The position numbers and the translations under genes are program-made. A stretch of DNA of 64,000 bases from Pilasporangium apinafurcum. Taxonomy: Eukaryota > Oomycota > Peronosporomycetes > Pythiales > Pythiaceae. Numbering within the stretch: position 1 is the first letter of the stretch; each line of letters starts with the position of its first letter. The DNA is taken from positions 240,088-304,087 of the forward strand of contig BCKE01000045.1 in assembly GCA_001600495.1 (NCBI GenBank), read 5' to 3'. Positions 14,042 through 55,409 of this stretch are shown here, piece after piece. The notes beneath the pieces were generated by a model. The model worked only from the letters and a program-made list of their open reading frames with translations. It was not told the DNA's origin and searched no databases.

Positions 14042-14692
14042 ACTAATGATTCGTCCGAGCGCAATCTGAAAATGCGGACTGGGCGCGCAAGTTCAACCAG
14101 CGCGCTATTTATGGTCATCACGTGAAGCATGGTCAGATCACTAGAATGGGTTTTATACTCTGTCAAGCAGATTTTTACTGAAAATACTATTTATGTATGT
14201 GTTTTTCCAATAATCACTTCAACTACCGTATTGAACTTACGGGAAATTAGTTATTGAAATTGGGTTTTAGAGAAAAATACAATGTATAGGATTTAGCAAA
14301 GCTAAAACCCTGCTTATTGTTGAATGTGTTTTTTCAGGGGCCTAGCAATACCCGTGGGCATAAAAGCTGCGTCCATAAACAGGATCGCATCCTAGGTTTA
14401 GGCTCCCCACAGCCATTGATGCATTTTCCTAATATTCTATTGGTTAAAATTATTTTTTTGCTAATCAGTGGTTTAGATGAGCATTTGTGTTTGGCTGCTA
14501 ATCAATGAACTGAGCATAACTATTGGTTAAAAATAAGCGTTTATTTGATAGGCGTAAGCTGCATGGTGATTGGCTAAAAAGAGAACAGTTTATTGACATT
14601 CACTCCTGTCGTAAAGAATCTCAAAAGATGAAAAGGCACACGCCAAGGAGGAAGCAGCAGCTTTTCCGCTTTTATCAATCGATCGCGTCAGG
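14042..14692. promoter_or_regulatory. Divergent promoter between PCCB and the giant surface-protein gene
   Basis: This 651-base gap has no credible gene. Near PCCB is the initiator-like element described separately. On the other side, three ATTGG words (inverted CCAAT boxes) at 14439-14443, 14522-14526 and 14569-14573 each run into an A-rich stretch (TATTGGTTAAAA, TATTGGTTAAAAA, GATTGGCTAAAAA), with two CTAATCA words between the first two. CCAAT boxes bind NF-Y in eukaryotes. The cluster sits about 120-255 bases upstream of the giant gene start. The rest is AT-rich and featureless. Confidence 0.55.
14069..14084 (-). promoter_or_regulatory. Oomycete-type initiator element of PCCB
   Basis: Reading on the minus strand, GCCCAGTCCGCATTTT matches the published oomycete initiator consensus GCTCATTYYNCAWTTT at 14 of 16 positions. 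It lies 28 bases upstream of the PCCB start codon, where a transcription start is expected. Confidence 0.6.
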
Positions 14693-17600
14693 ATGACCAT
14701 CGCATCAATGCTACTGCTGCTAACATTGATAGTAGTGAGTATTACTGATGCGAGTGTCAACTGGAATCCATATGTGATCCTACGTCCGCGACACCTGGTA
14801 GCGTTGTATCCACTGGCAACAGACCAGAACGACTATGCGCCTTATGGCTCCAGTAGTGACGGCTACGGACAGCACGGTACAGGACGATACCTCTCAGTTG
14901 CTGCAAAAAAAGGCGTGTATGGCAGCCTCCCCATGGATAGACAGAGCGGAGTGGACCTGCCGCTGAATGTGCATGCAAGTATACTACCTCAACTCACCAT
15001 GGGGATGTGGTTAAACATTCCTGTTGGCACGGAAACGCAGACGGGGTAAGCAGTCTTCCTTCCATCTTTCTCGTTCACCACAAATCTTTTTGGGACAAGT
15101 AGATCTTTTTATCTCCGATGTGTTCAGATGTGTCATATCGCAAAACGGACTGACGATCGGCCGCTCGTTATGCATGGCAAATGGCAAATGGATTGTTTCC
15201 GGACATTTAACAGAGATTGCTGTTGAAAGTGATGTGTGGCTGTTTGTTGCAGTGATATATGATACATTGAATGCGTTTGTCGGTGTTTTCATGAATGGGG
15301 AATTGTTTACATCGTCTAAGGCTGTAGACAACGTTGCCAGTCCAACGATGGTACTTGGATCTACTGCCGAAACAGTCACTGGTTTCATAGGGAAGTTGAG
15401 GGACGTTTTTGTCTATGATGTGGCTCTGTCAACAGCTGAGCTAAGGTATTTGATGAAGACAGAGGTCGAAGAACTACCACTAGCTGTCGGAAGTTGGGGG
15501 TATGCATTTAAGCCGACGGCAGTAGATATGCTGTCATTGCTATCGATCCCACTTCCAAAGGACACTGAAATATTGCTTGAGTCAGCTACTCTGCTATTTT
15601 GGATTGCATTGAGTGATAGCTCCACGCTAGATGCAGATAAAAGTTCTTGTCTATGTCGTTTAGTAGGAACGGCTTCACTTGGAACGTTGTCTGTTGTAGC
15701 GTCATACGACCATCGCATCGGACAGACATTTTTTCGTATCATCCGCTCAAGAACTTCTAGAAGTGAAGATGATACACAGCATTTGTTTCCTGCTGCAATA
15801 CTTGAGATGAGAAGCGAGTGGCAGCAAGTAGCCGTGGTTTGGACAAAAGATTTTATTCGAGTATACGTTGAAAACGCATTCAAGGTACGTTGTCAGCGAG
15901 CGCACTAAATGAACTTCTACTGCAGGGTTAATCATATTTATACTTATCCAACTAGGTTGAGCTTCAACTAGATCTGTTGTGGCTGAATTCACTTGAGGTG
16001 ATCCAAATGGGATCTGGCGCTCTACCTTCGGATGAAGCATCGGAACTCAGCGTACGATTTGATGAGGTTTCACTCTGGTCGACAGCGCTTGATGTTCAGG
16101 AGCTACAGTCTCGCCGAAACCAACTTTCAGGATTGGAAGCAGGTCTCATTGGATATTGGAAATTTGATGATATGGACGAACAAAGTCTTCAAGTTTCAAA
16201 CAAGGCAGCAAAGTACAATACGGCTTTGGATGCAGAAATTCGCGTGGCAACATGCAATCCCCGCAACTCAATCGGTTCACTTTTTCTTGGAGTTTCAGGA
16301 ACCAGCGTTTCTGACCAAGTTGAAGTGAAAAGTGGCCATTATGCAATTATCCAGCTTCGAAGATTCTCAAAAGCGAAATGCATCTTGAGTCAATTTATAA
16401 TAATCAAAGAACCCGATCATGGTACGCTCTGGGAAGTGGCTGTAGGGAATGAACTGTCCACCAGTAGTACGAATGCAAACAAGGGAAGCCCGGTAACGAC
16501 GCTCACAGAGCTTAGTGGCCCATATATTTATTACGATACCCCCAGTGACGTAAATAGTGATGTGGTAACATCATTTCAATATGCATCAACATGTGATGGC
16601 ATCCGAGTGAGCAATATAGCGACAGTTACAATTCACATCAGCTTCACCCAGGTGCTCCCTAGACTGGGTTTGCTTGATCGCCTCGAATACAGCGTCGATA
16701 TGGTAAAGATCGATGATCCAGACGAGATCGAATACAACTCTGCATCTTTGTATTCTTTTCAACTGAGTGGTGGCAGATCTCCATCTGTTCACCTTTCTGA
16801 ACAAGTGACATCAGCATCAATTGAGCAACTGTACAACGGAGCAAATAGCAGCAGCGCAGTTGTTATTCAAGGAGGCGCAACAGCAAGCGAAATTAACACA
16901 ATTGCAAGTGGAATAGCTGTCGAAGTAAATACAGAAAACCCTCTCGAGGTACAACTTGACCTGCATGTTGACGACATAGTTTCACAATACACTTTCCAGC
17001 ATGTATTGGCATCAATTCCTGCAATTACCGATATACATCCGACGGATTTAACGGTAGATGGAGCTAAAATTGACGTCCATGGCCAGAATTTTGCCGAAAT
17101 ATCTGCTTGTATACTCAATGGAACGACTGTGGTTGATGCATGGGTCATTTCACAGACTCATCTGCAATGTGCAATCCCGAAGCAAGATCAAACTGGTCCA
17201 TTATCTCTAGCTATTTATCCAGTCGCATTCCCGAACAAGACAAGTAATCCAGTGAGTCTATCGATTCATCCATCTTTCAGCTTGTGGTCCGTCCAGCCGG
17301 AAAATCGGATTGTTCATATTGGATCTGAAGTAGTGATTTCAGGGGCACCAATGTTCAATTCTCACTCGACGCTGTGTCTGCTGTTAGGAATCGTCTATGT
17401 TGTGCCGCATCATTTCACAAGTAATTCAATCGCTTGTCGTATTCCTGCCATCCCCGTAGAGGAATCATCCTCTGTCACTATTATGGACATCTCGGTAACA
17501 CAGAATAACGCTACCTACGTATCAGTCGGTACATTTGAACTCAGAAGACGGCCAACAATACATCGGATCCATCCATCGAGTGCAGCTTTCTTGCCAATTC

Positions 17601-20600: not shown

Positions 20601-23600
20601 CCGGATTTATAGATTTCGAACCGATATATTGCTTGTTCGGTGAAATTCCTGTGCTAGCTACTTTCTCCTCCCAAAGAATGGTGTCTTGTGTAGCTCCACC
20701 AATGACAAAAGAGCACCGATTAGCGCTTCGGCTCGCTATAAACTATGGAGGCAACAAACCCTACATAACGAACAGCATATCGTATTTCTATGTTGTTGGC
20801 CAAAGATTGGCGCGTGCTTCACCCAGATATGGGCCAGTGAAAGGAAATACCACTGTGACACTGTACGGCAGTGGGTTTACTGCGTCAGATGAAATTTGGT
20901 GTCAGTTTGGAGTTACAAGAGTCTATGCACATGTTCTCAACTCAACAGCGCTCAAATGCACATCGCCTCCAAGCCCTGTTGGGGCAGATGATGTTAATAT
21001 CCAGTGCTATATGGACAATGTGCGTATCCCATCCATGGAGATGTTTTTCGAGTATGTTTTACCGCCATACGTGTCACACATGACCCCCGAGATTGGATTC
21101 AGCGCCTCAACTACTTCGGTGGCAGTATATGGAAGAGATTTTTCGAAAGTATATCCCATCTACTGTCGGTTTGATAAATCGATCTCTGTCGCCAAGGTTG
21201 AATCCAGCACACTCGCGCATTGTGTGGTACCCCCTCATGCAAAGGGTGCTGTCAAAGCGGCAGTGCAATTAGGTAGAGCTTCGGGCGAAATTTTGACGGC
21301 AACGTTTGATTACATTGGTTCGTACTTCGGATGAAAATTTCTGCTGGCTTTGTACTGGTCTTCACATTCTACTAAATATGATTTGTCAATGTTTACAGAT
21401 GAACCAGTTCTCGAACAGATACACCCTCCACACGGGTCAGAGCAAGGCAATGTTAGAATACTGATTGTGGGCAAGACATTCCCGTCATCCGTGAGTTTTG
21501 GCTGCGTGTTCGAAGCTACTGATCAATCCATGAAAGCTGAAACGAGCGCGATTTGGGTGAATGAAAACGCGATCATGTGTTATACACCGCTATTCACTCC
21601 TGGTGATATCAACGTTCGGGTTCGGATCAGCGAGAGCATCACGACGGGACATATCCCGTTTACCTATACAGGTGAAATAAACCTGTTTCAGAAGCAATCT
21701 CTTTATTCCATGGCTTACAACGTCCAAATGTGTCTGTAGTGCGGCCACGAGTCTTTTCAATAACACCGAACAGTAGCATTGCTGGTCACACTCGCATCAG
21801 GATAGCAATATTTGGTGCAGGTTTTATCGACTCCCACTTGTTTCGCTGCAAATTTGGCTCTGTGAATGTGATTCCATTAAAAGTAGTTAGCTCTTCGCAC
21901 GTGATATGCGAATTGCCACCAATGAATACTCCAGCGATGCTTTCGGTGCAAATTTCCAACAACAATCAAGAGTTTACCAGTGACGATATTCAATTCAAGT
22001 TCTATCCATCCGTTCGTATCGAATTTGCTACACCAAGATCTGGTCCTATCGACGGTGCAACCACAATCACATTGTTTGGCAGCAATTTTCGGCCTGATGC
22101 CGATTTATCGTGCCACTTCATTGACACGAACGTTTCAGTCAAAGCGAAGTATGTCCATGAATCTGCATGTCAATGTATAGCACCACCAGCATCACGAAAA
22201 CAATCGTTTGACACGATGTTTGAGGTGACGGAAATGGGTCAGACCAGCATTCTCTTTCAAAGTTTATTTCTGTACAACTCGAATCCAGCCATCGTGTCTG
22301 TATTCCCACAAGTGAGTCTTGCGAGCGGTGGCACTGTCATGATAATTGAAAGGGAGCGGTTTAGTGATGCGGATTCACCACCACTGTTCTGCCAGTTTGG
22401 CTCAGTTCATTTTCAAGCGCCGTTGACGACTATGAACAGGACCCATTGTTCGTGCTTGACTCCCCCTCATCCTCCAGGGACAGTGAACCTTCGACTTTGT
22501 TACGATAGTCAACAATGCTCAAAAGTAGGCGAACCGTTTACTTTTATGAATTTTCCAATGGTTTACAATGTTGTTCCATCGGCCACGTACACGTCAGAAG
22601 CATCCGTGATCAGTCTAATTGGCGAGGGTTTCTTTAATTCTTCATCGCTTGTATGTAATTTTGACGATATGACGTCGCGCGCGCGATTTATTAATACGAC
22701 TGTGATAGAGTGCCCAGTCTACGATACGAAAACTGGTTGCCGAAACGTATCGCTTAGTGTCGATGATCAGCGAATTCCGTCTCGATTATTCACTTTTTGC
22801 TTCCGATCCAAGCTTTTTATCAACTCAATTCGGCCTACAAATGGACCAGCAAATGGTGGAACTCGGGTTCTTGTACACGGAGGTCCATTCTTTGCTTCAC
22901 GTCGATACTTGTGCGCGTTTGGAGATAAAACTGTTTCCACGACGTTTCTGTCAACGATGCAGATTCTTTGTATTTCTCCTCCTGGAACAGAACGCACTGT
23001 CTCCATTGATGTTCATGAGTGGGATGTAGATACAGATAATGGTTCCGAGCTGTTGTACACTTACCATCCATCGCCTAGTCTTGATCGCCTCGATCCTCCA
23101 AGAGGCTCAGAATCGGGCCAGTACCAAGTGCTCATTCAAGGCAGCAATTTTATTCAAAGTTCCGATTTGCGTTGTCGATTCGGTTTGTCAGATGTCGTAC
23201 CAGCAGAATGGGTATCGGAATTATCTATCGCATGCATGGCTCCGAAGCACTTGCCAGGATGGCTTGATGTCTATGTGACGAACAATTTGCAAGACTACTC
23301 AGCCAAGCCGCTGAGGTTCGAGTACGTCATGAACCCTATCGTGTCGTCATTCACTCCGGAACGAATTCCTGCAGGAGAAATTACCATGTTAGTGCTAACT
23401 GGTCATGAATTTCGAAATTCCACTGATCTGCGATGCATCATAGGCGACATTTTTGTCCCGGTAGAATTCGTATCAGAAGAGAAACTGCTATGTACACTTG
23501 AGTACGCAAGCAACGCAGAAGTTACTGTTGGTGTTGTGGATCTGTCCATGAGTATGAATCCCGTGTTTGCCCCAATGCGGCTTCGGTTCACGAAAGATTC

Positions 23601-38600: not shown

Positions 38601-41600
38601 AGTGGGCTTACGACCCTTGCTGGTGGCGACAGCGACCAATTTAGTCTCTACATCTGCCATAAGTGCAACAGTGACAAGGCTTAGCGCTGGGACAACACCT
38701 CTGAGTGGTACATTTTCGCTGAAACGAGTGGCAGCCGGGTATACATCTGGTTCACTCAGCTATGCCATCACGGCGGATGATCTATTCGTCGCGTTATCCA
38801 AAGACTTGCACATTTACCCAAATCAGGTGAAGAAGTATGTACTCTCCTCCGTGATTATTTGGAACGCTACCTTCTCAATTTTTGACAATTCTGGTGACGA
38901 TCTGTCCATCGCGAGCTCTACGATTGTTGGCAGTTCTGGTTTGGTATTAACCTACGATACTGCCAAAGGAAAACGAATGTCGGGAACATTTTCGCTCGGT
39001 TTGCTGAATCGTCGAACAACTGATATTGATGTATTTGCTACAGCAGCAAATGTACACCTAGCAATTAGTAATCTTGGACTCCCCGAGACCGCTTTGGTGC
39101 AAGTAACGAAGACAATTCTTCCTTATGGAGTGCAATTCTTGATCGCATTTGAGGACACAGCGGGTAATGTAAACGAATTCGCTGTGGATAGTAGCAAAGT
39201 CACTGGTACAGGATTGATGGTGACCCTCAGTACTCTTCAAGACGGCACATATGCTCCACTGGGAGGATCCTTCCAGCTGAGCACAAAAGCGGGAACAACA
39301 AATATTATCACCTACGCTCCTCCGATTCCAACACTGCAGACAGAGCTAGAAAAGCTCTTCTCGACGCCTATTTTGATGATTTCTATATCTTCACAAAGTA
39401 GTGGCTATCTATGGAGCATAACCTTTGATGGTGTCACTAATCCAGACTTATTGTCCAGTCTTTCGAGTGTTTCAAATATTACGGGGACTGGCGCCAACAT
39501 CTATATTGACGTGGTCGATAAAGGCATTGGAATGGCTGTACCTGTGGCTCTCAGTTCTAATGGGATAGACTTCACTGAGTCCACCCTCATGTATACATAT
39601 TTAAATCCGCTGGAAATCGTGTCGTTCAACCCCATATCCGGACCGATAGCAGGTGGTACACCCGTCCTGCTTACTTTACGTTTTAGTCTGCTATATGAAA
39701 CTATATATTGTCGCTTTGGAAAGCAAATCGTTGAAGGAAGCGCTGTCTCGACCACATTGATCAAATGCGTAACACCTAATGCTGATGTTGGACAAATCCC
39801 ATTAGACATCGGAATCAACGGAGTCGATTTTGACATGCATGCAGGCATGTTTATATACGATATAGACGAATCCACGAATCTTCGGCTGACTCCGTTGAGT
39901 GGTCCAACCGATGGAGGTACTCTCGTTTACATATTTGGTTTGGACTTCCACGGCGACCGTGGTTATACATGTTTGTTTGGCACAAAAATAGTAGTAGCCG
40001 AGGTCGCGAATATTACGCATCTTGGATGTCGAACCCCACGTGTCGAGTCTGCAGGACAAGTGGCAGTGAAGATATCGGATAACGACGGAGTTGATTATTC
40101 ATCATACAATCTTTCGTATAGATATGACGATCCTTTATATGTTACGAGTGTCTACCCGTTCAGCGGCGACATTGAAGGCGGTCAACTGATAAATGTCGTT
40201 GGGGGCAATTTCACAGCTGGCGCGGGGCAACTGCAATGTCGGTTTGGGGATACAATTGTCGATGCAACAGTTCATTCTTCGACAGCCGCTCAGTGCATAG
40301 CTCCGAAGCTGCAATCGATTCAAGATGTGCAAAGGGTTCAATTATCGACCGCCCGGTTGGTGCCGGAAATTCAACGGGTGACAATCTCTGCCGATGAACA
40401 TACCCCAACAATTCAAGAGATCAAAACGGTGGCGAACGCAGTGTTTCCAGAGATTCAGGAATTTGCCATCTACGGAGATGATGTATCGGAAGTACAGCAA
40501 GTGGAAATCAGGTCTCAAGCATACTCAGGAGAAGAGTTTTCGATCAAGACAGACATCCGACCACTAGTGAATGAAGTTCAAGCTGTTGAACTACACGCCA
40601 GTTCCTTCATTGGCGGTTCCTTTCGTCTCGTGATGGATGATCAGGAATCCGTTCCCTTAACGGCTTACGCCACCCGCTTTGAAGTAGAACGAGCACTGGA
40701 GGCCATGAGCAATGTTGGAGCAGTAATGGTGACGAAACCAACCGCCAATGGACTCTGGTCGTGCTTTTGGGAGATCGAATTCTTAGATCGTGCGGGGGAT
40801 TCGCCTATGCTTGTCATTAAAAACTTGACGCTGTCGGACTCGGGTTCAGGAGATTTAGAGTTCCGCGTGACAGAGGTTGTGAAAGGGAAAGGTCCAATCC
40901 TCTTCGGATCATTCCAGCTGGTGGTCGATGGAGAAACGACCGATTCCATTCCTTACCATGCCCAAGAAGAAGAGATGATGAACGTTCTCAGTCGTATCGA
41001 CAGCGGTGTTGCCTTAGTTACGCGTAATGGTCCATTTCTTAATCAGGCATATGAATGGATCGTATCGTTTCAGGGCATACCCGATCGGGTGCGATCTCTT
41101 GCCTCTATAGCTTCTGGACTAGCAGATGGCAATGGGAATGTGGCAATTGTGCTAAACTCACCTGGTGCAAAGGGTGAGCAGCAACAAATTGCAACATCGT
41201 TGACGAGTGGAACGTTTATCTGTCAGCTGCTGACGAATGTGTCGAGTCCGATTGCATTCGATGCATCGGCAATAGATGTACTGGCGGCATTCGATCCCGC
41301 AGCTTTCGGACAAATGAAAGTAACTGGGAGTGCTGGTGGGCCATGGACACTCGTGTTCACTGAATGGGCAGGAGATCTTCCGCTCCTTGATTGCGGTGTG
41401 CAGCAAACAGTACTGGAAATCACCGCAGGTACAGGTGTCGGACTATCAGGCGACTTTCGACTGGGTATTGGTAGTGAGTGGACCTCCTCATTGCACTTTG
41501 ACGCTACGGCAGCTGAAGTAAAAAGCGCGCTGGAGCATTTGTCGGCTGTGGATGACGTAACTGTTTACGCGAAAAGTACTAATGTGAACGGTGGAGGCGC

Positions 41601-44600
41601 CTGGTCCATTACCTTTCCGGGATATTTGGGTAATGTGCCGCTTCTTCTATCTGATATTGCAGAACTGGATGGGGAAATACCATCGGCCACTATCACAGAG
41701 ATTCAGAGGGGAAATGAAGTGAGTGGCCAGGTGTACTTTACTCTTCTAGACTCGCGCTCTGATCCTTTTCCGTTAGATGCATCATCGGCTAAAATTCAGA
41801 AAGCACTCTCAACATTGGACGGAATAAGCGGTGTTGATGCTGTGGTGGTATCGACATCCCGTTCGCTTCCGGCTGGTGGCTTTCTCTTGACCCTTACCTT
41901 TAGTAAATCAATGGGAAACATTCCACAACTAATATTGGGAACCGAAAGTGTCACTGGCGAAGGATTTACTATCGATCCACGAACAGTTCAAGAAGGGACA
42001 GATCCTATTGATGGATCTTTTGTTCTTGTCTACGAAGGAATACGAACACCCCCATTGCTGTGGAATGTCTCGGCAGAAGAAATGGCGATGACGCTACAGT
42101 TTATGCAGTCCATTCCCCATGACGGTATGCAAGTGACTCGAACAGGTCCAGATAATATCTCAGGCGGCATGACATGGATAGTGACGTTTCCATTCAATAT
42201 GCCAAATCCAAGTGAGTTGATCGATGTAATATTCGCGGACACTCTCAGAGGGATGAATGTTGATATGCAAGTGAATTTGCTATCACTAGAAACATCGTCA
42301 TTAGATGGGACTGTTCAGTTCAGTTACATGGGAAATATCATGGATGATATTAACGTTCGTGATGATGGAGAGATACTTCAACAAGCACTAAATGTGATCC
42401 TCGCAGCAAATTCAGTCATTGATGTCACTCACAGCTATGCCAACAATCTTGTGCAGTGGGATGTCACATTTCGCTCTCTATGGACAACGGTGATGGGAGT
42501 GTCATCGCCGCTAATTGAGGTAGCTTCTCAACAATTAACTGGGATAGGAGCAATGGTCCACATTGAACGTATTCAAGAGGCGCTACATGCTGAAATTCAA
42601 AGCGTGAGTATTTACACATCGTTCGTGCAATCTGTCGTGGCTTTTGATGTTTTCTGGAATCAAGTATGTGGTGCGTATACGGGTACGTCAGATTTGTCAG
42701 CTTCCGATTTTCAACAACTCCTGAAGACAATCCCAGGTCTAGATATCATAGATGTGGAGAGATATCCCTCGACTATTGGTACTGGTTACACATGGTTTAT
42801 CTTGTTTACACAGTCCTCTGCCAATCATCCATTAAGTATTCAACTAAGCAACGCAATACCAGCTGATTTGGTTGTTGAAATAGTCTCGTATCCGTCCACA
42901 GTTACGCCGCTATCGGGTTCATTTGTGCTGCAACTTGGTGAAGTGTGCTCTGAGCTGACGCTTGGAAACTATTGTAGGCCTGCCCGAACAGCGCAGATGA
43001 GCTTCAATGTCGATGCATACAACATGGAGCACGAGTTATCGCTTCTCCCGGGTCTCAGTGGTGTTTCCGTGGCTCAAACAATCGCTTATGCTTCCTGGAA
43101 ATATGAATGGCGAATTACATTCCCTTTCGCTTTTCAGCAAGTGGAACTCGTAATGATTGACAGCACAATGCTGGCTGGAAGCAATGTATTGGTTACAATA
43201 GATAGGGAACAAAAAGGAATAGATATTGATGGAGCCAAAGTGGCTGTGGAAGTCTCGTCAAATGGTCAAGACTTTTCATATAGCGGCGTGGTCTACCGTT
43301 ATGCACCAACACCAGATGTCTATGCATTGATTCCCAATCATGGGCCGCTGAAGGGAGGTACAGAGGTCGTTATCATTGGGATCCATTTTCTCAACGCATC
43401 GAGTCTGCGTTGTCAATTTGGAGATGCTGTGATCGCAGCTACGACGTTTCTAAATTCGACGCATTTGACATGTGTATCTCCTAGCGGCTTAGCACCAGGC
43501 AATGTTTACGTCGAAATTTCTAATCATGGGTTGTATGGCGACACCACGACCTTCACAAGTAGTAAGCGGATCTTCACGTACGACAAGGAATTGGTAATCA
43601 CGTCTATTTTTCCACCACTGGGACCTACGACCGGCAACTTCTCAGTGGTTCTCACTGCCGGCCAATTCCGAAAAACAGATGATGTTCGTTGCAAATTTGC
43701 TAAAGTTGCAGTACAGGCGCAGTGGGTGAGCTATGACGAGATTTTATGCGTGGCTCCACCGCACTCCCCTGGGGTATTTCAGCTTCAAGTAACTTTGAAT
43801 GGCCAAGATTACGAAGATGTTGGACTGCCATTCATATATTACCCAGAGCAGGGTATTCGTCGTATTGACCCAGTGTTTGGTCCGGCTGTGGTCGCTGGCA
43901 CAAAAGTGTTAGTGGAAGGTTATGGTTTCGTTAACACATCGCTGTTATCTTGTCGATTTGGGTATGTGGTCACACCAGGTGAGTTTATAAGCCCAACAAA
44001 AATGCGTTGTGTATCCCCACCACTGCCAAAGTACAGTGGTGGTCTACAACTCGCTCCGCTCTCAGAATATCGCAATATGTACCTCGACCCAACCCACGGA
44101 AGCGTCTACTTATTTCCAACCGCCCATTACTACCCATTATATTGGTCGCGTTTGCTTACAATTGAGGTTTCTAATAATCAACAGGAATTCTCGCTGAGCG
44201 GTGTGAACTTTTTGTACTATCAGGATGCAACGCTATTAGCTGTTTATCCTAAGAGAGCATACAATGTTCCGGAGCTGTCGCTGTTTGCGGAAGGTAATTA
44301 TTTTATCAATTCTTCCTCTCTGACTTGTCGTTTGGGGCTTCAGGTGTTTCGAGCGACGTTCATTTCGACTCGACTCTTGCTTTGTCCAGTGCAGTTTGCT
44401 TCGCCATACGAAAATTCGCGACGAGACACAGATGTTAACGTTGCACGACACGCGCTATTCGAAGTTTCCAACAACGGCGTAGATTTCACCAGTAGTCACA
44501 CAGTTTTTGAGTTTCTTGGCGCTTGTCCGACTGGGTATTATTGCCCTGAGGAACTATCTGGGCAGAAGCTTAAGTGTCCAAGAGGAGCATATTGCCCCGG

Positions 44601-47600
44601 CGAGGACAATCGCAATTTCACTCTCTGTCCTCGAGGCACTTACCAATCACTCAACGCTCAGGCTGCGTGCTTGCGCTGCCCCATTGGATACCACTGTCCA
44701 CATGAGGGGATGCACGTGCCGAGGATCTGTCCTGCTGGCTTTGTATGCGATCAAACAGGTATCGAAGACGTGCTGCCACCATGTCCAGAAGGCCATTTCT
44801 GTCTTGAGGGAACAGCAACCGCGTCAGTGACCTGTACACCCCAGAGTCGCACCGGTATCTTGATGGCGTCCATAAAAAAGAATAACCAACCGCCAACGAT
44901 TCGCCGACGCAGCCATCAGCAAGGTGGAAATTTCAGTATTGGTGCACGGAAGAGCGGCTGCTGGAGCAACGAAACCTCGGACTTTGGCTTACAGTTGAGC
45001 CAGCACACCAGTCGTTTTTGGATGGAGCTGCGCCAACTTCCACTCACACCAGAAACTATGTTCACACCCCTTCGCGGTCGATTTTGTTTGGATGACGCAT
45101 GCATAAAGCTTGTTGATGCCGATAATTTCCGGGCTCTGGATGAACATTTTGACTATTCATCAACCAATTTCGCGCTTCGTCGACCCATTCCATGCCCTAA
45201 AGGTAGTTACTGCCACCCAGGGACAGCAGGTAATGACTTGACGATGAAGAATTACTCGCAGCCCCAGCCGTGCTTTGAAAGCATGTACTGCCCAGAGGGA
45301 AGTGCAAACCCCAGAGGCTTCGGCGAGTGTGCAAAGGGGTTTTACTGCCCGTTTGGCGTTCGAATCGCTTGTCCAGCGGGAACATTTTGCCCAGAGACGG
45401 GTCTCACTGCACCGATGCCGTGTCGACCAGGCACGTTCAACGCCATGGTTGGACAAGTAAACTGCACCTCCTGCCCGGTGGGGTTCATTTGTCCTGGATA
45501 TAATCGGCTAGTACCGGCGCTCTGCCCAGCTGGGTACGCTTGCAGCAAATCAGGGCTCTCGTCACCGAATAGCCTCTGTCCAAAAGGATTCTACTGTCTG
45601 GCAGGCACAGCTACTGCTGATGCCTTCCGTAACGACACGCGACTGCGGCCGTACCCGTGCAAACCAGGCACATACTGCCTCAAAGGCGTTGTATCAGACG
45701 AGATTCGAATGGGTGACTACCGCTATCCGCAAAACTGTACCGCTGGATTCTACTGTGAGTTGGCATCGTTCTCAGCGACGGGATCGGGACTCTGTCCGCC
45801 AGGCTTCACCTGCCCAGCCGGGACCGCAGCTCCAATCCCTACTGACATCGGCACATATGCAGACCTGGAAGGCACAGTGTCTGCCGCAGAATGTGCCCCT
45901 GGGTATTACGCACCTACTATCGAGTCAACAAGCTGTGTGCCTTGCCCTCCTGGTACGAGCTGTGAGAATGACGGCACAGCCATTGCGAGTGTCTGCCTGC
46001 CTGGTACGTATCGCGGCTCGCTCTCCGCGGACGGTGTCTCTTGTCTCGCGTGTCCTCAAGGGACGTGGTCAAAGAACTGGGAGCTGCGCGGCGTGGACGA
46101 GTGCTGGAAATGTCCACCAGGAACCGTCTGTCCTGTAGACGGCATGACTTATCCATGCACATCAGACGACCTCCCGCATGTCTACGTTCCGCTGTCGGGC
46201 AATTTCTCCTACTCTGAGTGTCTGGAGAAGGGTGATGCGTATTTTTTCGGCGTGCTACTGGAGCCGTGGATCGACGAATTTGGTCGTGGGCCCCACTTTC
46301 TACCTTCACGCGATGGTCAATGCTACAAGAACACAAATCCACTCGGATCCGTGCTCTACCAGCGATTGGTGGACTATCATGGCCCACTCTACGAACTAGC
46401 GACAGGTATCCCGCATCAAGGATATGGTGATGTGGATCAGAACCCCGTACCCAATATGTTCATGCGCGGGTCCCTGACGATCGATCTCCCAGTCTCCCAG
46501 ATGTTTGATGCTGCGCGCAACTGTACCAAAGGATTTTTTCATCTTGGCCAGTGGTTCCCAGGTACTTGTGAGGCCGATATTTTCTGCATGTCTAGTACTA
46601 CTAGTTCTAGTAACAGTAGTTCATCAGGCGAAGTGGTAGCTCAAGCGCAAGCGTGTCCAGAAGGATATGTTTGCGACCAAGAAACGAATTCGTCCAGTGT
46701 CACGGACTATCTCTGTCCTGGAGGATACGTGTGTGCACCAGGCACAACACCGGATCTGAACCTCGAGGCTCCCCAGGGGCAATTGAAGCAGCTCTGCTCG
46801 GCGACGTTCTATTGTCCGGCAGGTACAGCCGAATCCCAAAAAGACGTCAATGCCTGTCCTGCGGGCTACTTCTGTCCGACTGGCACTGTAAATCCATATC
46901 TCGGAATGATGGCGAACGATGGCATGCGTCGTCGCATCACGGCGGAGGAGGCGAATCCGTTTCTGGATGTGAATTACACCAAGTACATTGGTGACGGCGA
47001 TATCCGTGTCGTGTCGGCCCATGACATGCGGTGCTTTAACGGTATTGATGACGATTTGCTGACAATTTACCATCGTGTTACACGTGAGAGCGACGGGCGC
47101 TCTGTGGTCATCAATCGCGCCATCGAAAATGACTTGAAGTGTGCTCGAGATCACAAATGGCGGCACGTATACCTCGCCCAGCGGAAAGACGAATGTGACT
47201 GTGTCGCGCAGGTCAAAGTTGTGCACAAGGTGTTTCAGCTCTGGAAATGCACGGTCGCACAGTCGGTACCTGCACTTACGGTGTACGATCCTAATCTCTA
47301 CGGATGGAAGGAAGTGCACAATTTGGTAAAGCAATGCGTCTTTCCATCCTCCTCTGCGGCCAACTCTGGTAAGACTGTCGTCAATCTTCAGACTCTTTTA
47401 AGTGGAGATGGTGTCGAATTTCAGATTGGATGGGAAGAATCCACAACGGTGTATACCTATGAAGAACTGAGTACCCTCGTGACCGCCAAATACGCAGCGC
47501 AAGCGAGTCTCATCCCTTCACAGACAGTCGACATTGATCCGTTTCTCTACAATCTACATCATGCGATCGAGATCATCGAACAATTCGGAGAGGAGACACC

Positions 47601-50600
47601 CGACTTTGTAGGATTTGCGATAGGATCAGACGGTAATGATGATGAAGACTTGTTGCGCCTAGACACGTGCGCGTGCGCTCGCATGCTGAAATGTCCCAAC
47701 GGTACAACGTCAGACGCCGGATCGGACGACATCTACGACTGTGTGAAGACGGGCTCTGAGATTCTCCAGCGCCTGACACCCATTCCGCAGACCTTTGAGC
47801 GGCTTATCAATGGATCCGATTACAAGGAGCTGTCAGGCATGGATGAGGGCATCGGCTCCATTATTCTGCAGCCATGGGAAGTAGCGGTGTTGACGATCAA
47901 CACGACGGAGCTCTCAGGCAATCTCACGTACAAGGACCACTACCAGATCTCGGTCTACACCAATTGTAAGCCATGTCCTCCGCGCTACCAGTGCGATCTC
48001 ACTAGCATTCCTCCGTCGTGTTCATATCCAGACAATGACGAGAACACCGCCACAGCACTCTACGATCAGTGCATGGAGGAAAAAAATGACGAAAATCTTT
48101 GCAATGCCATGCCCTATTACTGCGAACGAAGAACGTATGCAAAGCAAAATGCTGATGGTACCAACACCACAACATCTGTGGCAGGGTGCTGTTCTTGTGA
48201 ACGGCGGGAGATGCCGTACTACTTTGAAGATACTACAGCCGATCTGGGTTATCCCGACAATAAGCACGGATATCTCCAGTTTAGTATCGCTGCCGTTGAA
48301 CGTACAGAGCTGACCATTACAGTGGAGCTGCTCCATGGGCTGTATGTGAAGGATTTCGTGGAGGGATTCATACAAGATCGCTTCGATATCAACATTTTTA
48401 CACCATCACGAGCAGATTATTCGTCGTCAACTCCCTCGACCAACAGTTTTATCGCTGTGATGACCAAGTCAACGTACGATAGCCTGATGTTGCCACTGAA
48501 TCTGCCCGAATCAAGCCATCGAATCAACGGTACGCTCACGTACGAATACACAGTGGAAGAGCGAATTTTTATCGACAGAATGTCGGATATTATGGTCGGC
48601 GATCCATTGCTGCCAAGCAAACACGGGTTCATCCGCAACACGGAGCAAAACAGTATCGGAGGTGTAACGAATACCACGACCAACATCACAGTGGTGGCCC
48701 CAACTGAATACTTTGGTCTTTATCCAGTAGCAGATCCGCGCGATAACGTCCTGTACGCCGATACGTGGTGGACGCAGAAACTGGACGGCCTGGAATTTGT
48801 GGCTTTGCCGTACTTGCCATTCTTCTCCAACTGCCGAGGGTTTGACTCACACATATGGATCTCCAAACTGCTCGAATCGCACCCAGATTGTGAGTTTGTC
48901 ACGTATGAGGAAACGGTCGAAGTGGATCAGTACCCGTGGAACAAGAAGATGGTGCCCAATGCTGACAAGTGCATCATTAGCTACACCACAGAGACAACCT
49001 CATCAAGCGGAACGACAACTTACACGAGTGGCGAGCGCGGGGTCAGCCTCGCATGCACCTATGAAGAGAATCTAGAAGGTGGTGCTGAGAAAACGCGGTG
49101 GTATGAGGCGTCTACTGACACGGTGCTATTCTACATCACGCAAGATCCAGCATCGTCAGATGATTTCGTGGGGGACAGTACCAACAGCGAGCTCTGGGGA
49201 CGCACCGACACGATCAGCGCACTCATCGGCACGGATAAACTCGTACCTGTGACAGGTAAGGTTGTCCATTAATTTCTTTACTCATGATCTCTTGTTCACG
49301 AGGTTCTTCTTTTTCTCTAATTTGCTACGCAAGTCGGAGAGAGCGCTGGAGTCGAACTAGCGATGCCACAAGAGGTGTACCTCAATCTGACGTATTACCA
49401 AGTGACACCCGGAAAAAAGCGGCTCGTCCAAGCGACCGTAAATTTTGGGCAGCTCTGCACTGTGTCTCAGTCCACCGAAATTATTGCCAAAATGGCCAAG
49501 AAGAATATTGATCAATGTGCAATTACCAAGGATACAGGGACGCTAGCTTCGTCGGATTTCGTGCTGCTAGTCACATGGGAGCCACTGGATTGGTTTGAGT
49601 TGATGAATCTCTTTCAGTTCACGGTGGATGTCTACTTGATGTTCTTTATGCTCGTGGGACTTTTGAGCATCGTTCTGGCGGTACATCTGGATCGTGCTAG
49701 TTGGTCATATATCCGTATAAACCTTGCTAACACAGTGATTTCTTATTCTAATTGTTCTGTAGATGATCATCTGGATCATTAATCGCTTGTTCACCAAAAT
49801 GAAGAAGCCGCCAAAATTTCGCATGAAAATTTTGTTGAAGAACATCGCAGCACCGCCCTCCTTCGGTATCTTTCTCACGTGTCTCCCTATCGCAGTACTA
49901 TGTGCTGTGATCTACATTTGGTGGGAGGTTTTCGCCTCCAATAGTCCACTTACAAACCCCAATGCCATTTCCTTTGAGGGCATAGCTGGGGACTGGCTGG
50001 ATCAAATCTCACTGGACGTCGATCGGGTGCAAAAATACAAGAAAGGTCGTACTGGTGTGAGTCTTCTTGTTGTAGGTGTGTACCTCCTGTTGTTGGGCTC
50101 AGAATTGCTCATTCCTGAGACACTGGATCCACAAGTTGAAGACAATGCCTATAAAGAGATGGCTACAGGCCCAATTGATCCATTTGATGTGGAAGAAGAG
50201 AATGAAGAGAAGGAGGAAGATGAGTTTTGGGATCCGCGTGCCTGGAAAATTGCCAATTTACTACTCGTCACGCTCTGCTTCATGGCGTTTCTGCTGGTGA
50301 TTTGGGAAATATCATATTCTCCTGCATTCACCAGCAATATTTACGGGTTCCTCATCCTCTTCAAGCTGCTGAGGAACGTGTTAGAGATCGTCATCGAGAT
50401 TTTCTTGCATGAAAAACTGCTGGCCCTTCCTTTTGTCGTGGTATTATCTGCTACTGAGAGTATGATGGCGATGGGATCGGCGGACTTTATAGGCTTCACG
50501 TTTTTTTACTACGTGAATCTGAGCTTCGTGATCATGGAGCGCTTGTACTTCGCTCCACTCCTACGGCATCTGTGGGGTATGTGGCCCAAGTGGAAACTCA

Positions 50601-53122
50601 TATTGCACCGCAAATTTCGCAAGCGAAGACGACGCACGCGCGAACAGAAGGCGCTCGAGGAAGCCGAATGGCGACGCATTTGTGAACGAATCAACAACCA
50701 AGCGGCTGGAGTGGAATCTGTGCTGGAAGCTGTGGCAGGCTACAGCATCGTCTTCACTGAGCTGTTCTTGGCGCCGATTGTTCTGGCATTTCAGGTAGTT
50801 TTCAGCGACGACACGCAGATGCCCACGCTCTACGGCGTCAAGCAGACAGATTTGCTCTATTACGCGCTCTTTTCTCTCTTCATCATTCCCAGCAACTTGG
50901 TCATGGGTGTGTTCCAACTTAACACGATGGAGCTGGCACACGGTTGGAAGATTTATGAGTACATCTCGTACCAGAAGCATCGCTTTGCGACGCGTGACGA
51001 GCGTTGGCAGATGAAACAGAGTGCACGGGATGAGAGCATCCACCCGGCGTTCCAAAGTTTAGATCTGCTCTGTGTGTCGTCGCAATTCTACTTCCTCATC
51101 TCGCTCTACGCCATGGGCATTCTGCTCACCATGTTTGGCACGACGATTTTCTTACGACACAGCTACAGCATCTTCGGTGATCCACTCACTATCATCATTG
51201 GTATATGCATCTATGTGTTGGCACGGGCGGTACAGGAGGCATGTTTTCTCCTGGCCAACCGACTGGGTGTGTGGAAGCAGAAGCAGCTGGAGGGGACACT
51301 GGACGACGAGATCGCGGCCAAATTGGCGCTAGGCGCTGGGCGACAGAAAGATTTGGAACGCGAGCGGCTAGAGCTGCAGGCGCTCAATTCAGAGCGCTTT
51401 CGTCACCGATTCATGGATCGAAACCGACCATGGATTCTCCAACACTTGGTAGAACTCTTTACGCCACGGACACTCGCTGTCACGGGGGCGGACGGGCATC
51501 CCAATTCAGAATATGTGCGTGACATTTATCATGAACTCATGACTATGGGCGAAGGCAGACGGCTACAGGGCGATCGATCCGACATTTCGTCCGACTCTGA
51601 AGACGATCTAGAGAAAATGCGCCGCAGCTGGTCAAATGTACCCGTGGCGGGCACCTCCAAAGACCTGGCGCTCTATTGGCTTGTTCGGGCCAGGAAGCGT
51701 CGAACATTTGGGAAACTGGTCACAGGCATTATCGCCAACAACAAACAATCGATATGCGCAGCTTGTCAGAAGAGCGAAGACGGTGGCTACACAATGCATG
51801 TAGATCTGGCCAACGAGGACCAAACTGGCCAGGACCATAACGCCATCGACCGGCTTATCTACGGTTTCGAAGCGGAGTTTGGTGAGACGGAGATGGACCC
51901 GGATTTGTGGAAGGCATATTTTCGGAAACATGCTGTCTACATGACACTCTGTAACGTTTGTCTATCTGCTTTGCAGCAGAAACAACTGGTTCGGATCACG
52001 AAACATCTGCCTGTAGCCCAACGCGCTCTGCGCGATGACGAATTTTCATCAGATGAGGAGCAGGACGTGGCGTTTGAGCCGCTTGTAGTCGCTCGGACGT
52101 CTGTAGAAGGTCGAGTGATGTCCAAATGGCTCATCGCTGCCAGGAAGCGGCTTGGCGGTGTGTTTCCGCGAGAGAACGCACGCCATGAAATGGAGGTGTA
52201 TGCCAAGAAAATGCGCATGAAGAAAGCACGTAAGGGAAAAACGGCCCACGTGGACTCGGACGAAGAAGACCCATCGCTGCACTGGAAGTTGCAGCTCAAT
52301 GAGACGTCTCGTGCACTGGCGCTGCGATGGGTCTGGCAGGCGCGTGATACGCAATACGCCGTGTTTCGAGAGAAAGCGACGCAGCTGCGGGAGAAACTGG
52401 CGGCTATGTGCGATAAAATGCAAGAAGTCGAAGATTGGTACTACGGCAAGGAGCTCCGCCTGGATGGGGTTCGATTAATGGAGGAGGGAAAGGAACTCCA
52501 CGATGAACAGCTCCAGTACGACCAAGACATGGTGCAAAAGATCAATCAGACCGAGAGGGACGTTGAAGCGTTTGAAAAGGATAAACGCGATTCCACAGCC
52601 GTGGAGGTTGAGGCATTCCAGAAAATCTTGGAAAAGGAAAGCGAAGACGCACAGAAACATGTAGACACTCGAGAATTGGAGCTATTGGAGCTCTACAAAA
52701 ACAAAGAAGTAGAATTTGCCGCGATACAGAAGTCCGCGCGTGAGGAACAAAAGTTGACTACGGTGCTAGTGAATGAACATCGAGCTTATCTAGCAAAACT
52801 GGAAGAAGAGCGCACGGCTGAACTGAAGAAGCTTACAGATACAGCTAGTGAGAAGGAAAAGCAGAAGAAAGAAGCGTTCGAGCGAAAATTGGCACTCTCA
52901 GAGAGCGCAATTCAAAGTCGCAAAGCGTTAGCTCAGCACCGGATTTTGAGTATCCGAAAGGAAGCTATGAATGTACTTCGTCAACGAGAAAAAAGTTGGC
53001 AATCGCGTGTCGGAGGGTGGATGGAGAAAGCAGGCCGGAAGATTTCTGTGAAGGAGCAGGAGGACCTGGAGGCGAAGGCGAACGAGAAGAAACGACGTAA
53101 GCGGGTTCTGCTAGCACAGTAG
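14693..53122 (+). CDS. Giant multidomain surface protein (LamG, IPT/TIG array, GCC2/GCC3, multipass membrane)
   Basis: Seven exons (14693-15045, 15128-15884, 15956-21317, 21399-21671, 21740-49255, 49334-49680, 49763-53122) keep phase throughout and encode 12,655 residues, roughly 1.4 MDa before glycosylation. Order: signal peptide (MTIASMLLLLTLIVVSITDA), two LamG/concanavalin-like domains (to about residue 470), a cadherin/CSPG-like stretch, about 56 IPT/TIG domains (about 720-5750), the SGTF-module region with two TIG triplets inside it (about 5755-9410), four more TIG domains (about 9435-9838), about 26 GCC2/GCC3 cysteine motifs (about 9840-10640), a membrane-proximal ectodomain, about ten membrane segments (about 11510-11985) and a cytoplasmic tail ending in a coiled coil. 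N-glycosylation sequons are frequent. TIG and LamG domains are generally extracellular recognition or spacer folds, so I infer a very long cell-surface receptor or adhesin with a multipass anchor. The exact ligand and cell type are unknown. The first intron acceptor (15127) was chosen because it alone restores phase. Confidence 0.85.
14756..16260 (+). other. Two LamG/concanavalin-like domains of the giant protein
   Basis: The first copy spans exons 1 and 2 (LVALYPLATDQNDYAPYGSS, LTMGMWLNIPVGTE, KLRDVFVYDVALSTAELRYL). The second runs from ATLLFWIALSDSS to RFDEVSLWSTALDVQELQSR, then GLIGYWKFDD. The closing pattern V-x-V/L-W/Y-x-x-A-L-x-x-x-E-L/V is typical of the LamG/pentraxin-like superfamily. 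Both probably bind glycans or proteins at the distal tip of the molecule. Confidence 0.7.
17015..32250 (+). repeat. Array of about 56 IPT/TIG domains
   Basis: Consecutive units of about 90 residues share the pattern I-x-x-I-x-P-x-x-G-P-x-x-G-G-T-x-V-x-I-x-G-x-x-F, then a Cys pair in L-x-C-x-F-G and I-x-C-x-x-P, and end with V-x-V-S-x-N-G-x-D-F (clear examples: IYPDNGPFRGGTMVTITGEG and VYPQRGSTEGSTQVYVSGTG). I counted 56 starts by eye, 16 in exon 3, one in exon 4 and 39 in exon 5. Units are strongly diverged from one another and some have lost the GG-T loop or a Cys. TIG domains are immunoglobulin-like beta sandwiches; the paired Cys probably form a disulfide in each unit. Confidence 0.85.
32255..37090 (+). 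repeat. SGTF-module block A (about 14 copies) with leading EIQ strands
   Basis: After the TIG array a different module takes over. Each copy runs about 95-110 residues: SG-T/S/N-F-x-L, a strand ending I-x-F/Y-D/N, then A-x-x-L/V-x-x-A-L-x-x-L, V-x-V-x-R, G-x-x-W-x-V-T-F, G-x-L-x-V, and a closing V/L-x-x-G. Good copies include LSGTFQLTVLGFATGSIAFD and AGLFQLSYKGVNTSPIPFD. Copies are preceded by short strands such as EIQQLSI, EVQRIAT or EIQNVTL. The block opens with six or seven such strands in tandem (32270-32520). I do not recognise a named family for certain. Confidence 0.7.
37105..37930 (+). repeat. IPT/TIG triplet inside the SGTF region
   Basis: Three TIG domains begin at VESLSPSTGPTTGGTNITIY, LDSFTPSHGPHTGATILMIH and LSTIHPTSGPASGGTTVMAQ. 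They are closer to the canonical pattern than many in the long array. Confidence 0.75.
37940..39530 (+). repeat. SGTF-module block B (about 5 copies)
   Basis: Five copies follow the TIG triplet, starting from EIQEISTMTAVSN. Recognisable starts are IGGYFIVQYDNYSTKPIPFD, ISGVYIISYLG, LSGTFSLKRV, MSGTFSLGLLNRRTTDI and LGGSFQLSTKAG; the W-x-V/I-T-F core is present in most (YTWDVTF, YLWSITF). Confidence 0.7.
39600..40310 (+). repeat. Second IPT/TIG triplet inside the SGTF region
   Basis: Starts are IVSFNPISGPIAGGTPVLLT, LRLTPLSGPTDGGTLVYIFG and VTSVYPFSGDIEGGQLINVV. Each keeps the C-x-F-G and C-x-x-P cysteine pair. Confidence 0.75.
40315..43235 (+). repeat. SGTF-module block C (about 9 copies) with EIQ strand run
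   Basis: A run of short strands (VQRVQLS, EIQRVTIS, IQEIKTV, EIQEFAIY, EVQQVEIR, EVQAVELH) at about 40320-40600 leads into nine modules, for example IGGSFRLVMDDQESVPLTAY, LSGDFRLGIGSEWTSSLHFD, IDGSFVLVYEGIRTPPLLWN and LSGSFVLQLGEVCS. Core motifs such as GAWSITFPGYLGNVPLL and MTWIVTF are well kept. Confidence 0.7.
43300..44510 (+). repeat. Last four IPT/TIG domains
   Basis: Starts are YALIPNHGPLKGGTEVVIIG, ITSIFPPLGPTTGNFSVVLT, IRRIDPVFGPAVVAGTKVLV and LLAVYPKRAYNVPELSLFAE. The last is degenerate. They lead directly into the cysteine-rich region. Confidence 0.75.
44515..46915 (+). repeat. GCC2/GCC3-type cysteine-rich repeats, about 26 motifs
   Basis: The motif C-P-x-G-x-Y/F-C-x-x-G recurs about 26 times (CPTGYYCPEE, CPEGHFCLEGTAT, CPKGFYCLAGTAT, CPPGFTCPAGTAA, CPAGYFCPTGTVN). 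It matches the ephrin-receptor-like GCC2/GCC3 family. An insertion without cysteine motifs at about 44820-45190 interrupts the run, and a second spacer lies at about 46150-46640. Confidence 0.8.
46591..46628 (+). repeat. Short TAG/AGT simple repeat encoding a Ser tract
   Basis: A degenerate trinucleotide run rich in AGT and ACT encodes SSTTSSSNSSSSG inside the cysteine-rich region of the giant protein, probably a flexible loop. Confidence 0.6.
46916..49600 (+). other. Membrane-proximal ectodomain of the giant protein
   Basis: About 870 residues between the GCC repeats and the first membrane segment. The segment is not repetitive and looks conserved in style, with scattered cysteine pairs (ARMLKCPNG, CKPCPPRYQCDL, CCSCERREMPYYF) and a long beta-rich part (GYLQFSIAAVERTELTITVE). 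I recognise no family. Exon 5 ends inside it and exon 6 carries the last part. Confidence 0.5.
49600..51285 (+). other. Multipass membrane region of the giant protein
   Basis: Hydrophobic segments, in order: FMLVGLLSIVLAMIIWI (built across the exon 6/7 junction), FLTCLPIAVLCAVIYIWW, VSLLVVGVYLLLLG, LLLVTLCFMAFLLVIW, IYGFLILFKLLRNVLEIV, LPFVVVLSATESMMAMG with FIGFTFFYYVNLSFVIM, SIVFTELFLAPIVLAFQVVF, LLYYALFSLFIIPSNLVMG, FYFLISLYAMGILLTMFG and LTIIIGICIYVLARAV. That is about ten spans. Basic loops (RKFRKRRRRTREQKA) suggest cytoplasmic sides. I see no ion-channel selectivity motif and no GPCR or kinase signature. Confidence 0.75.
52380..53090 (+). other. Cytoplasmic coiled coil at the C terminus of the giant protein
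   Basis: The last 235 residues are highly charged, with heptad-like spacing (LREKLAAMCDKMQEVEDWYY, DMVQKINQTERDVEAFEKDK, AYLAKLEEERTAELKKL) and a basic end (KEQEDLEAKANEKKRRKR). They probably oligomerise or bind the cytoskeleton. Confidence 0.7.
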
Positions 53123-53213
53123 ATAGAGGTTTGGATTAACTAAAAGGAATAGCAAGGAAGTACGCACAATTTGCCGTGACACACCACTGTAGATTTCGTT
53201 TGTTGTGCAGTCA

Positions 53214-55224: not shown

Positions 55225-55409
55225 GTTTCCCTCTTGACCAACACTCTTTTTATAAAAAGCGTTTCCACCAATACAGTGAATGCATTACAAAGTACGATTG
55301 GTTGATAACCGATTAGATGACCTACACTCTCGTACATTTATTTATTGATCTTTCATTCATTATGCATCCACTCAATCATTCGGCAAGAACACTTCAGAGA
55401 GAGAAAACA
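55225..55409. promoter_or_regulatory. Divergent promoter between WD40 gene and PdxT
   Basis: A 185-base gap between divergent start codons. On the minus strand a TATA-like run (TTTTTATAAAAAG, about 55247-55259) lies about 25-35 bases before the WD40 start codon. On the PdxT side only AT-rich sequence with repeated CATT words is seen. Confidence 0.45.

Follow-up and report, generated by a model that had tools for sequence, protein, structure and literature searches.

A giant predicted surface protein of the oomycete Pilasporangium apinafurcum with arrays of a phage-type CTE domain nested in its TIG stalk

Introduction

Fibrocystin and fibrocystin-L (PKHD1 and PKHD1L1) are giant surface proteins with a signal peptide, a long array of TIG domains and a single-span membrane anchor, and their family is defined by G8 and PbH1 domains accompanying the TIG array. 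The plexin and Met receptors have a handful of IPT domains and kinase or plexin cytosolic parts. TIG giants are already known, as are multipass proteins with GCC2/GCC3 repeats. Here I describe a gene on the plus strand of a 64,000-nucleotide stretch of the Pilasporangium apinafurcum genome (assembly GCA_001600495.1, contig BCKE01000045.1, positions 240,088 to 304,087; hereafter the window). The gene lies at positions 14693-53122 of the window and is predicted to encode a surface protein of 12,655 residues, which contains about 66 TIG domains and about 28 copies of a second module. A sequence-only reading of the window had left this module unnamed, and its nesting inside TIG domains was unmentioned. 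In this study, the module is assigned to the CTE domain of phages. CTE is the name given to the extra domains of the distal tail protein of phage Bxb1 in the accessible part of PMC13252515.

The second module resembles the phage CTE domain

The module is about 94 amino acids in length, and its copies are 18-34% identical to a reference copy. A hidden Markov model (HMM) built from the protein itself detected 25 copies (24 near full-length and one partial), and three degenerate copies were recognized by eye, which brings the number to the 28 that the sequence-only reading had estimated. An alignment of the 24 copies was used as the module profile. In a search of the PDB sequences, this profile matched the Bxb1 "tail tip cage" protein gp23 in three stretches with an expectation value (E) of 9e-26 and the Bxb1 major capsid protein with an E of 2.7e-5. 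Bxb1 gp19 (0.074) and Patience gp22 (0.13) appeared more weakly, among rows at chance level, and the RNA-binding-protein rows of the same search (0.11, 0.14 and weaker) were taken as chance.

The fold leads to the same group of proteins. An AlphaFold model of the module, with a predicted local distance difference test score (pLDDT) of 86.6, is mixed alpha/beta, and the idea of an Ig-like fold was dropped for this reason. When the model was compared with the PDB by Foldseek, ranks 1 to 12 were all Bxb1 or Patience chains, and ranks 1 to 5 had a probability of 1.00. Each of these matches alone is modest; the best E was 3.6e-3 and none reached 0.001. Among predicted viral proteins, the best match was an unnamed protein (3.8e-4), followed by the minor tail protein of phage Sheen (1.2e-3), both with a template-modelling (TM) score of 0.69. 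The named viral rows with a probability of 1.00 include tail proteins, both minor and major, from phages of Mycobacterium, Microbacterium and Corynebacterium, as well as a tail fibre protein (uncultured Caudovirales phage). The tail sheath and major tail families of PHROGs each match 7 of the 24 copies at E≤1, with best values of 2.8e-5 and 8.2e-5, respectively.

The 24-copy HMM was also used to scan 570 stop-to-stop open reading frames (ORFs) from four phage stretches. The tail-tip proteins of SWU2 (9.3e-38), Sheen (9.6e-37) and Bxb1 (gp23, 3e-28) were found, followed by the Skog tail sheath protein (3.1e-14), the Bxb1 capsid protein (8.7e-8) and Bxb1 gp19 (2.4e-4), and the next ORF was at 0.44. 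In SWU2 and Sheen, the best domain covers profile positions 2-93, and in Skog it covers positions 2-86. Of the copies in each tail-tip protein (SWU2, Sheen and Bxb1), the first two match the first half of the profile only. When the module profile was aligned with a phage profile by hhalign, a probability of 99.0% was obtained (E 3.2e-18, 82 columns, 33% identity), although the 11 phage rows had been picked partly with the module profile, which favours the match. TIG controls gave 0.1% and 0.2%. The PDB and Foldseek results are independent of this selection.

At the level of tblastn (E≤0.01), the module arrays matched 15 phage records (best E 2e-7), and a second module-array query matched 108 phage records, with E between 4e-3 and 1e-2 among the matches listed. 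No phage record was matched by 2,987 amino acids of the TIG stalk. A phage query matched 672 records, 649 of which are from Mycobacterium phages. Neither Pfam (24 copies, no significant entry) nor NCBIfam (a seven-module stretch, no entry) provided a name for the module. The FTP propeptide (E 0.13) and POTRA with eight other Pfam families (0.026-0.31) were taken as chance matches. Relatives of the module were sought in bacteria by scanning genomic contigs with the profile consensus (594 pattern matches, none confirmed) and by scanning plasmids (none found); exact-peptide and tblastn scans of this kind are insensitive at 20-30% identity, so that absence is unproven. A scan of viral contigs with seven modules found nothing.

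Both the sequence profile and the fold (AlphaFold model and Foldseek) thus place the module among CTE domains, and it is almost certainly homologous to the CTE domain found in the capsid and tail proteins of actinobacteriophages. The profile match extends over most or all of the module, with a matching fold, in the CTE domains of the Bxb1 virion (gp14 major capsid, gp19 major tail and gp23 tail-tip cage proteins) and in their SWU2, Sheen and Skog relatives. The setting is different. The phage proteins examined have one to three CTE copies and belong to virions, whereas the giant protein is no virion structural protein: its gene has introns, its product is of a secreted, membrane-anchored type, and its roughly 28 copies are grouped in arrays of about 5, 9 and 14 within TIG domains.

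In the gp23-type phage proteins, the copies are likewise in tandem and an E[VIS]Q strand precedes them. In the three tail-tip proteins, which are mutually related, E[VS]Q followed by any residue and a hydrophobic one stands 13 residues ahead of the core glycine in all nine modules. The same strand pattern was found 14-16 residues ahead of the core glycine at seven places in the arrays of the giant protein. Of its 21 E[IV]Q motifs, 18 lie in the arrays, compared with a mean of 1.1 and a maximum of 6 in 1,000 shuffles. In the Skog tail sheath protein, the Bxb1 capsid protein and gp19, another hydrophobic stretch replaces the strand, as judged by eye. Since all three of the non-tail-tip copies examined lack it, the strand was dropped as a general CTE feature; it is common to the giant protein and the tail-tip subset and does not define CTE. 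CTE copies that directly follow another copy seem, by eye, to borrow the last strand of that copy. At the start of arrays 1 and 3, E[IV]Q or D-V-Q strands follow one another at intervals of 13-15 or 28 residues without an intervening CTE core (e.g., at 32278-32520), and it is possible that these runs form a small beta-solenoid-like collar.

Nesting of the CTE arrays in TIG domains

Array 1 (32323-37038; residues 5777-7348) is marked by E[IV]Q strands and contains 12 CTE copies detected by HMM and two recognized by eye. Array 2 (37984-39528; residues 7664-8178) has four copies by HMM and one by eye, and array 3 (40417-43221; residues 8475-9409) has eight copies and one partial copy by HMM. The N-terminal two thirds of a TIG domain precede each array, which stops just before what appear to be the missing last strands of that domain. 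These orphan C-terminal strands were detected at 39529-39603 for the second split TIG domain (17.9 bits, TIG HMM positions 65-89) and at 43222-43305 for the third (20.0 bits, positions 64-89). Those of the first split TIG domain are probably encoded at 37039-37107 (residues 7349-7371; 5.7 bits, E 0.91, positions 66-87). None of 917 control windows from the arrays reached 5.7 bits, the best being 5.0.

The split domains were then rejoined and scored with a TIG HMM built without the three split copies, using 917 control windows per array. For array 2, the N-terminal part joined to its orphan scored 77.7 bits, compared with 57.0 for the native continuation and 59.4 for the best control. The corresponding values for array 3 were 76.9, 52.7 and 59.5. 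Orphans 2 and 3 are interchangeable in these scores, as expected for repeats of one fold. For array 1, the joined domain scored 65.8 bits against 60.1 for the native continuation, and one of the 917 controls was higher (66.1), which weakened the idea that nesting is equally clear for all three arrays. By these sequence comparisons, arrays 2 and 3 are clearly inserted in a TIG loop, and array 1 is probably inserted likewise.

The highest total of inserted residues is at position 64 of the TIG HMM (115, spread over 21 of the 63 copies, split copies counted, with one insert of 38), followed by 56 inserted residues in 24 copies at position 41. Thus, the arrays occupy the most insertion-tolerant loop of the stalk. 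Since an array that starts and ends in one Ig-like domain has both ends together, the arrays would be side loops off the stalk rather than segments that lengthen it.

Gene structure and the other parts of the protein

The spliced sequence of 37,968 nucleotides consists of 12,655 codons and a stop codon, without an internal stop. The seven exons are located at 14693-15045, 15128-15884, 15956-21317, 21399-21671 (phase 1-1, encoding one TIG domain), 21740-49255, 49334-49680 and 49763-53122, as judged from the spliced translation, and the six introns are each 68-82 nucleotides in length with GT-AG ends. Exon 5 lies in a frame without a stop over 9,198 codons (21676-49272), which cannot be due to chance. 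Intron 1 is supported by the Laminin_G_3 match, which grows from profile positions 72-150 in exon 2 alone (41.4 bits) to 18-150 once exon 1 is spliced to exon 2. No tandem repeats were found at the DNA level in the locus at the default score, and there is one weak 40-nucleotide repeat pair. This makes an assembly with collapsed or expanded repeats unlikely, and a recent repeat expansion or assembly artefact was dropped as an explanation. The gene and its domain order are very probably as described here. The sequence-only reading had likewise proposed one gene of seven exons, a secreted-type N-terminus with two LamG domains and about 66 TIG domains, all of which are borne out. Its order of domains as far as the membrane spans also stands, and the tail, where it placed a coiled coil, is highly charged; its 26 GCC2/GCC3 motifs differ from the counts obtained below.

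The start codon and a signal peptide, residues 1 to about 20, are at 14693-14752, with a hydropathy peak at residues 1-19. In the spliced N-terminus, Pfam found two Laminin_G_3 stretches (together 54.4 bits, E 2.1e-14). The best one, residues 100-223 (14990-15443), spans intron 1 and crosses the exon junction at residue 118. The second LamG domain, approximately residues 265-445 (15567-16180, limits estimated by eye), spans intron 2. The N-terminal 722 residues matched no PDB sequence at E≤0.1. An INR-like sequence, TCACTCC, lies at 14600-14606, 93 nucleotides upstream of the ATG, and is a weak fit to the oomycete INR core-promoter pattern YCAYTYY given in the consulted part of PMC3599244. In addition, an upstream frame of 22 codons (14628-14696) starts 65 nucleotides before the main ATG, and its TGA overlaps that ATG (ATGA). 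A role in translational control is possible.

TIG domains (PF01833) were found above the Pfam cut-off in exons 3, 4 and 5; three pieces gave E values of 5.4e-268, 1.3e-106 and 1.5e-82, and exon 4 gave 2.1e-10. With the HMM derived from the protein, 63 copies were detected, and three degenerate ones were seen by eye in the gaps. The main stalk, residues 723-5776 (17012-32322), contains 53 of the HMM copies and the three degenerate ones. Three copies follow at 37108-37974, the third of which (37711-37974) is split by array 2, and three more at 39604-40416, the third split by array 3. The last four copies are at 43306-44526, one of them with a 38-residue insert in the same loop as the arrays. The TIG/IPT fold is shared with the plexin and Met receptors, and 480 residues of the stalk match the PDB entries 5lsp (E 7e-8) and 5l7n (8.7e-6). 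Pfam listed neither G8 nor PbH1 for exons 2-7 at E≤1, so the protein falls outside the fibrocystin family as defined. It resembles fibrocystin and fibrocystin-L in the signal peptide, the long TIG array and the presence of a membrane anchor, and differs in having a multi-span anchor, several times more TIG copies, CTE arrays and LamG domains.

The cysteine-rich GCC2/GCC3 (Ephrin_rec_like) region comprises residues 9844-10900 (44524-47694). Pfam found five Ephrin_rec_like stretches, whose whole-protein score of 22.8 is just under the cut-off of 23.1. One CxxG-type pattern occurs 32 times in residues 9841-11100 and seven times in residues 1-9840; a second pattern occurs 18 and three times, respectively. 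The region matches Chlamydomonas Mst1 with an E of 3.1e-8 (best stretch 7e-5, about 110 residues), and the likeness is one of shared repeat class only. Mst1 was not listed for the other pieces searched against the PDB sequences, namely the N-terminal 722 residues, 480 residues of the stalk, the module profile and the membrane region. A 257-residue open frame on the minus strand (46624-47397), antisense to this region, is probably due to chance.

The membrane domain, residues 11510-12031 (49600-51247, interrupted by intron 6 at 49681-49762), has 10-11 predicted spans; ten groups of hydropathy peaks lie past residue 11,505, and an eleventh was seen by eye near 11,779-11,800. No Pfam family was above the cut-off in the membrane region and tail of exon 7, and no profile of polycystin or another named channel fits the membrane region, although a channel family outside those libraries is possible. 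Scans of one viral and one genomic contig set confirmed no relatives of the membrane domain. The charged tail, residues 12032-12655 with the stop codon, is at 51248-53122 and is predicted to be cytosolic; residues 12061-12655 are 18.3% K and R and 17.8% D and E. N-glycosylation sequons number 21 between the GCC2/GCC3 region and the membrane domain (10.8 +/- 3.1 in shuffled sequences), 52 in the first TIG block (39.9 +/- 5.7), 15 in CTE array 1 (11.8 +/- 3.0) and 2 in the tail (1.4 +/- 1.1), which fits an arm outside and a tail inside the cell. The tail also carries a CxxC pair at residue 12,201 and another at residue 12,266 (51755-51961), which look like a zinc site, and the same region holds three W-L-x-x-A-R-like motifs recognized by eye.

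The guanine-plus-cytosine (GC) content of fourfold-degenerate sites is 0.416 before about residue 10,321 and 0.597 after it (interval 10,079-10,344; log-likelihood ratio 60, compared with a maximum of 8.9 in 300 shuffles). In steps of 150 residues, the rise is gradual from about residue 9,900. It sits inside exon 5, in the GCC2/GCC3 region (44694-49254). Five adjacent gene pieces have fourfold GC of 0.48-0.68, and introns and flanks have a GC content of 0.36-0.48. Thus, the silent sites of the arm resemble non-coding DNA, and the C-terminal part resembles the neighbouring genes. The two zones may reflect relaxed codon selection in so large an ectodomain, or the protein may have arisen by fusion of parts that differ in history.

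In the neighbourhood, cyclic-nucleotide-binding and protein-kinase domains are encoded in adjoining frames at 2065-3998, probably as one gene for a cyclic-nucleotide-dependent kinase. A 937-residue open frame with a p25-alpha (TPPP-like) domain is at 7080-9890; the p25-alpha family is often linked to microtubules and cilia. Downstream, at 53200-55500, a minus-strand WD40-like gene with introns is followed by a plus-strand start resembling a PdxT-type glutaminase, both recognized by eye.

Discussion

Taken as a whole, the reading that I somewhat favour is that one gene encodes a giant membrane-anchored surface arm consisting of two LamG domains, a stalk of about 66 TIG domains, CTE arrays, a cysteine-rich collar, a multi-span region and a charged tail. 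From the geometry of the insertions, the CTE arrays would jut from the stalk as side loops. The LamG heads and the CTE loops may engage many ligands simultaneously on a surface, and these ligands are probably glycans. The stalk, which is estimated at a few hundred nanometres if extended, would give reach and elasticity, and the multi-span base and charged tail may relay contact or tension to the cell interior. Laminin G domains are implicated in adhesion in the accessible text of PMC10762896. Such an adhesive or contact-sensing role is suggested tentatively from the domain content.

Several observations weigh against this reading or parts of it. As far as the excerpt of PMC13033339 goes, glycan binding was demonstrated for Ig-like domains of phage Douge and not for CTE, and the N-terminal 720 residues with the LamG domains have one sequon only. 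The membrane domain has no significant match in Pfam, NCBIfam or the PDB sequences (best PDB E 1.2), and its single-sequence structure model was not used (pLDDT 45.7). The sequence-only reading had placed the arm on a channel- or receptor-like base; its single gene, the great length and modular build of the arm, the multiple membrane passes of the base and a charged C-terminal tail are upheld, and the likeness to a channel or receptor is left without support because the domain matches no family and its model is unusable. The nesting of array 1 is weaker than that of the others, given its orphan with an E above 0.9, the one better control and an N-terminal part that aligns on into the native continuation. 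One E[VI]Q pattern match occurs outside the arrays, at residue 416 with a spacing of 17, and the strand is absent before 3 of the 12 phage CTE copies examined. The choice of phage rows in the hhalign comparison belongs here as well. Finally, since synonymous GC shifts inside exon 5, the two ends of the protein may differ in history.

Is there a simpler explanation? That the likeness to phage proteins is convergence on a small alpha/beta fold might be argued from the shortness and divergence of the modules and from the modest single Foldseek matches. This is hardly credible in view of the near full-length profile alignment with its 33% identity and a common pattern (G-x-F, T-x-x-I, A-S/T, A-L), and tail-tip proteins also have the extra E[VI]Q strand at near-equal spacing. 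The GC shift within a single exon, together with the resemblance of the arm to introns and flanks and of the C-terminal part to the five neighbouring gene pieces, would agree with a locus that is transcribed as at least two units or isoforms, such as a TIG/CTE arm and a separate cysteine-rich multi-span protein starting in exon 5. I consider this improbable; the frame is open for all 9,198 codons across the change, the change does not separate domains but falls within the GCC2/GCC3 region, and no signal-peptide-like hydropathy peak lies between residues 6,552 and 11,510.

With one protein accepted, its function could be other than adhesion. The match of the GCC2/GCC3 region to Mst1 would agree with a structural role in a flagellar or cell-surface hair, such as a mastigoneme-like filament or anchor, in which the protein had no adhesive binding of its own. 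Against this, GCC2/GCC3 repeats are common among protist surface proteins. The p25-alpha protein and the cyclic-nucleotide and kinase domains upstream would suit such a hair, and a tubular mastigoneme chain (9ufe) appeared in the module profile search with a non-significant E of 0.28. Phytophthora mastigoneme proteins have a signal peptide, three or four EGF-like domains and no membrane span, according to the part of PMC12223298 consulted, whereas the giant protein has 10-11 spans and no EGF family listed by Pfam. A hair component is thus unlikely. The Tetrahymena mating proteins MTA and MTB, as described in the available portion of PMC10901506, join a variable ectodomain, a cysteine-rich domain and five adjoining multipass helices, and by this layout the giant protein might be a mating or self-recognition receptor. 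Mating had been suggested in the sequence-only reading, together with adhesion and mechanosensing, for a wall-less stage such as the zoospore. The comparison concerns layout alone, the giant protein has 10-11 spans, and this role is very improbable. The adhesive or sensing arm accordingly remains the role that I prefer among these.

No protein uniting a TIG giant, GCC2/GCC3 multipass architecture and CTE, or with CTE arrays nested in TIG loops, was found among the papers listed in searches of the open-licence literature, judged by title or abstract start. As far as these searches reach, this agrees with the sequence-only reading, which knew of no characterised protein with this combination. 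The portions consulted of a Phytophthora zoospore membrane proteome, an oomycete flagellar gene survey and a calpain review covering LamG and oomycetes mention no such protein. CTE domains themselves are known already, and within the same reach, the novelty lies in their union with a TIG giant and a GCC2/GCC3 multipass protein and in the nesting of the arrays in TIG loops.

A more speculative reading is that a eukaryotic lineage captured a domain of tailed-phage virions, directly or via a bacterial host. The domain would then have been amplified to about 28 copies and incorporated into TIG loops as side branches, serving multivalent binding to the surface of a partner. If this doubtful scenario were true, CTE would have the same task in the cell as it may have on the virion, namely multivalent surface binding. 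Similar repeats occur in algal and other protist proteins. The eukaryotic spread of the module may therefore be wide, and a wide spread would make an old shared module more likely than a recent phage capture. Within phages, one relative of Patience has a minor capsid protein without a domain that is present in Patience, according to the part of PMC10635136 that was available, and this domain may or may not correspond to the CTE part.

The finding ties a building block of virus particles to a eukaryotic surface protein and raises the evolutionary question of whether it was transferred from phages to eukaryotes or is a wide, ancient module. Since the structure of the module has been solved on phage particles, its naming lets phage structures inform eukaryotic giant proteins, and vice versa. 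The giant flexible arm thereby becomes a design that can be tested, in which side loops made of a defined and expressible domain branch from a stalk.

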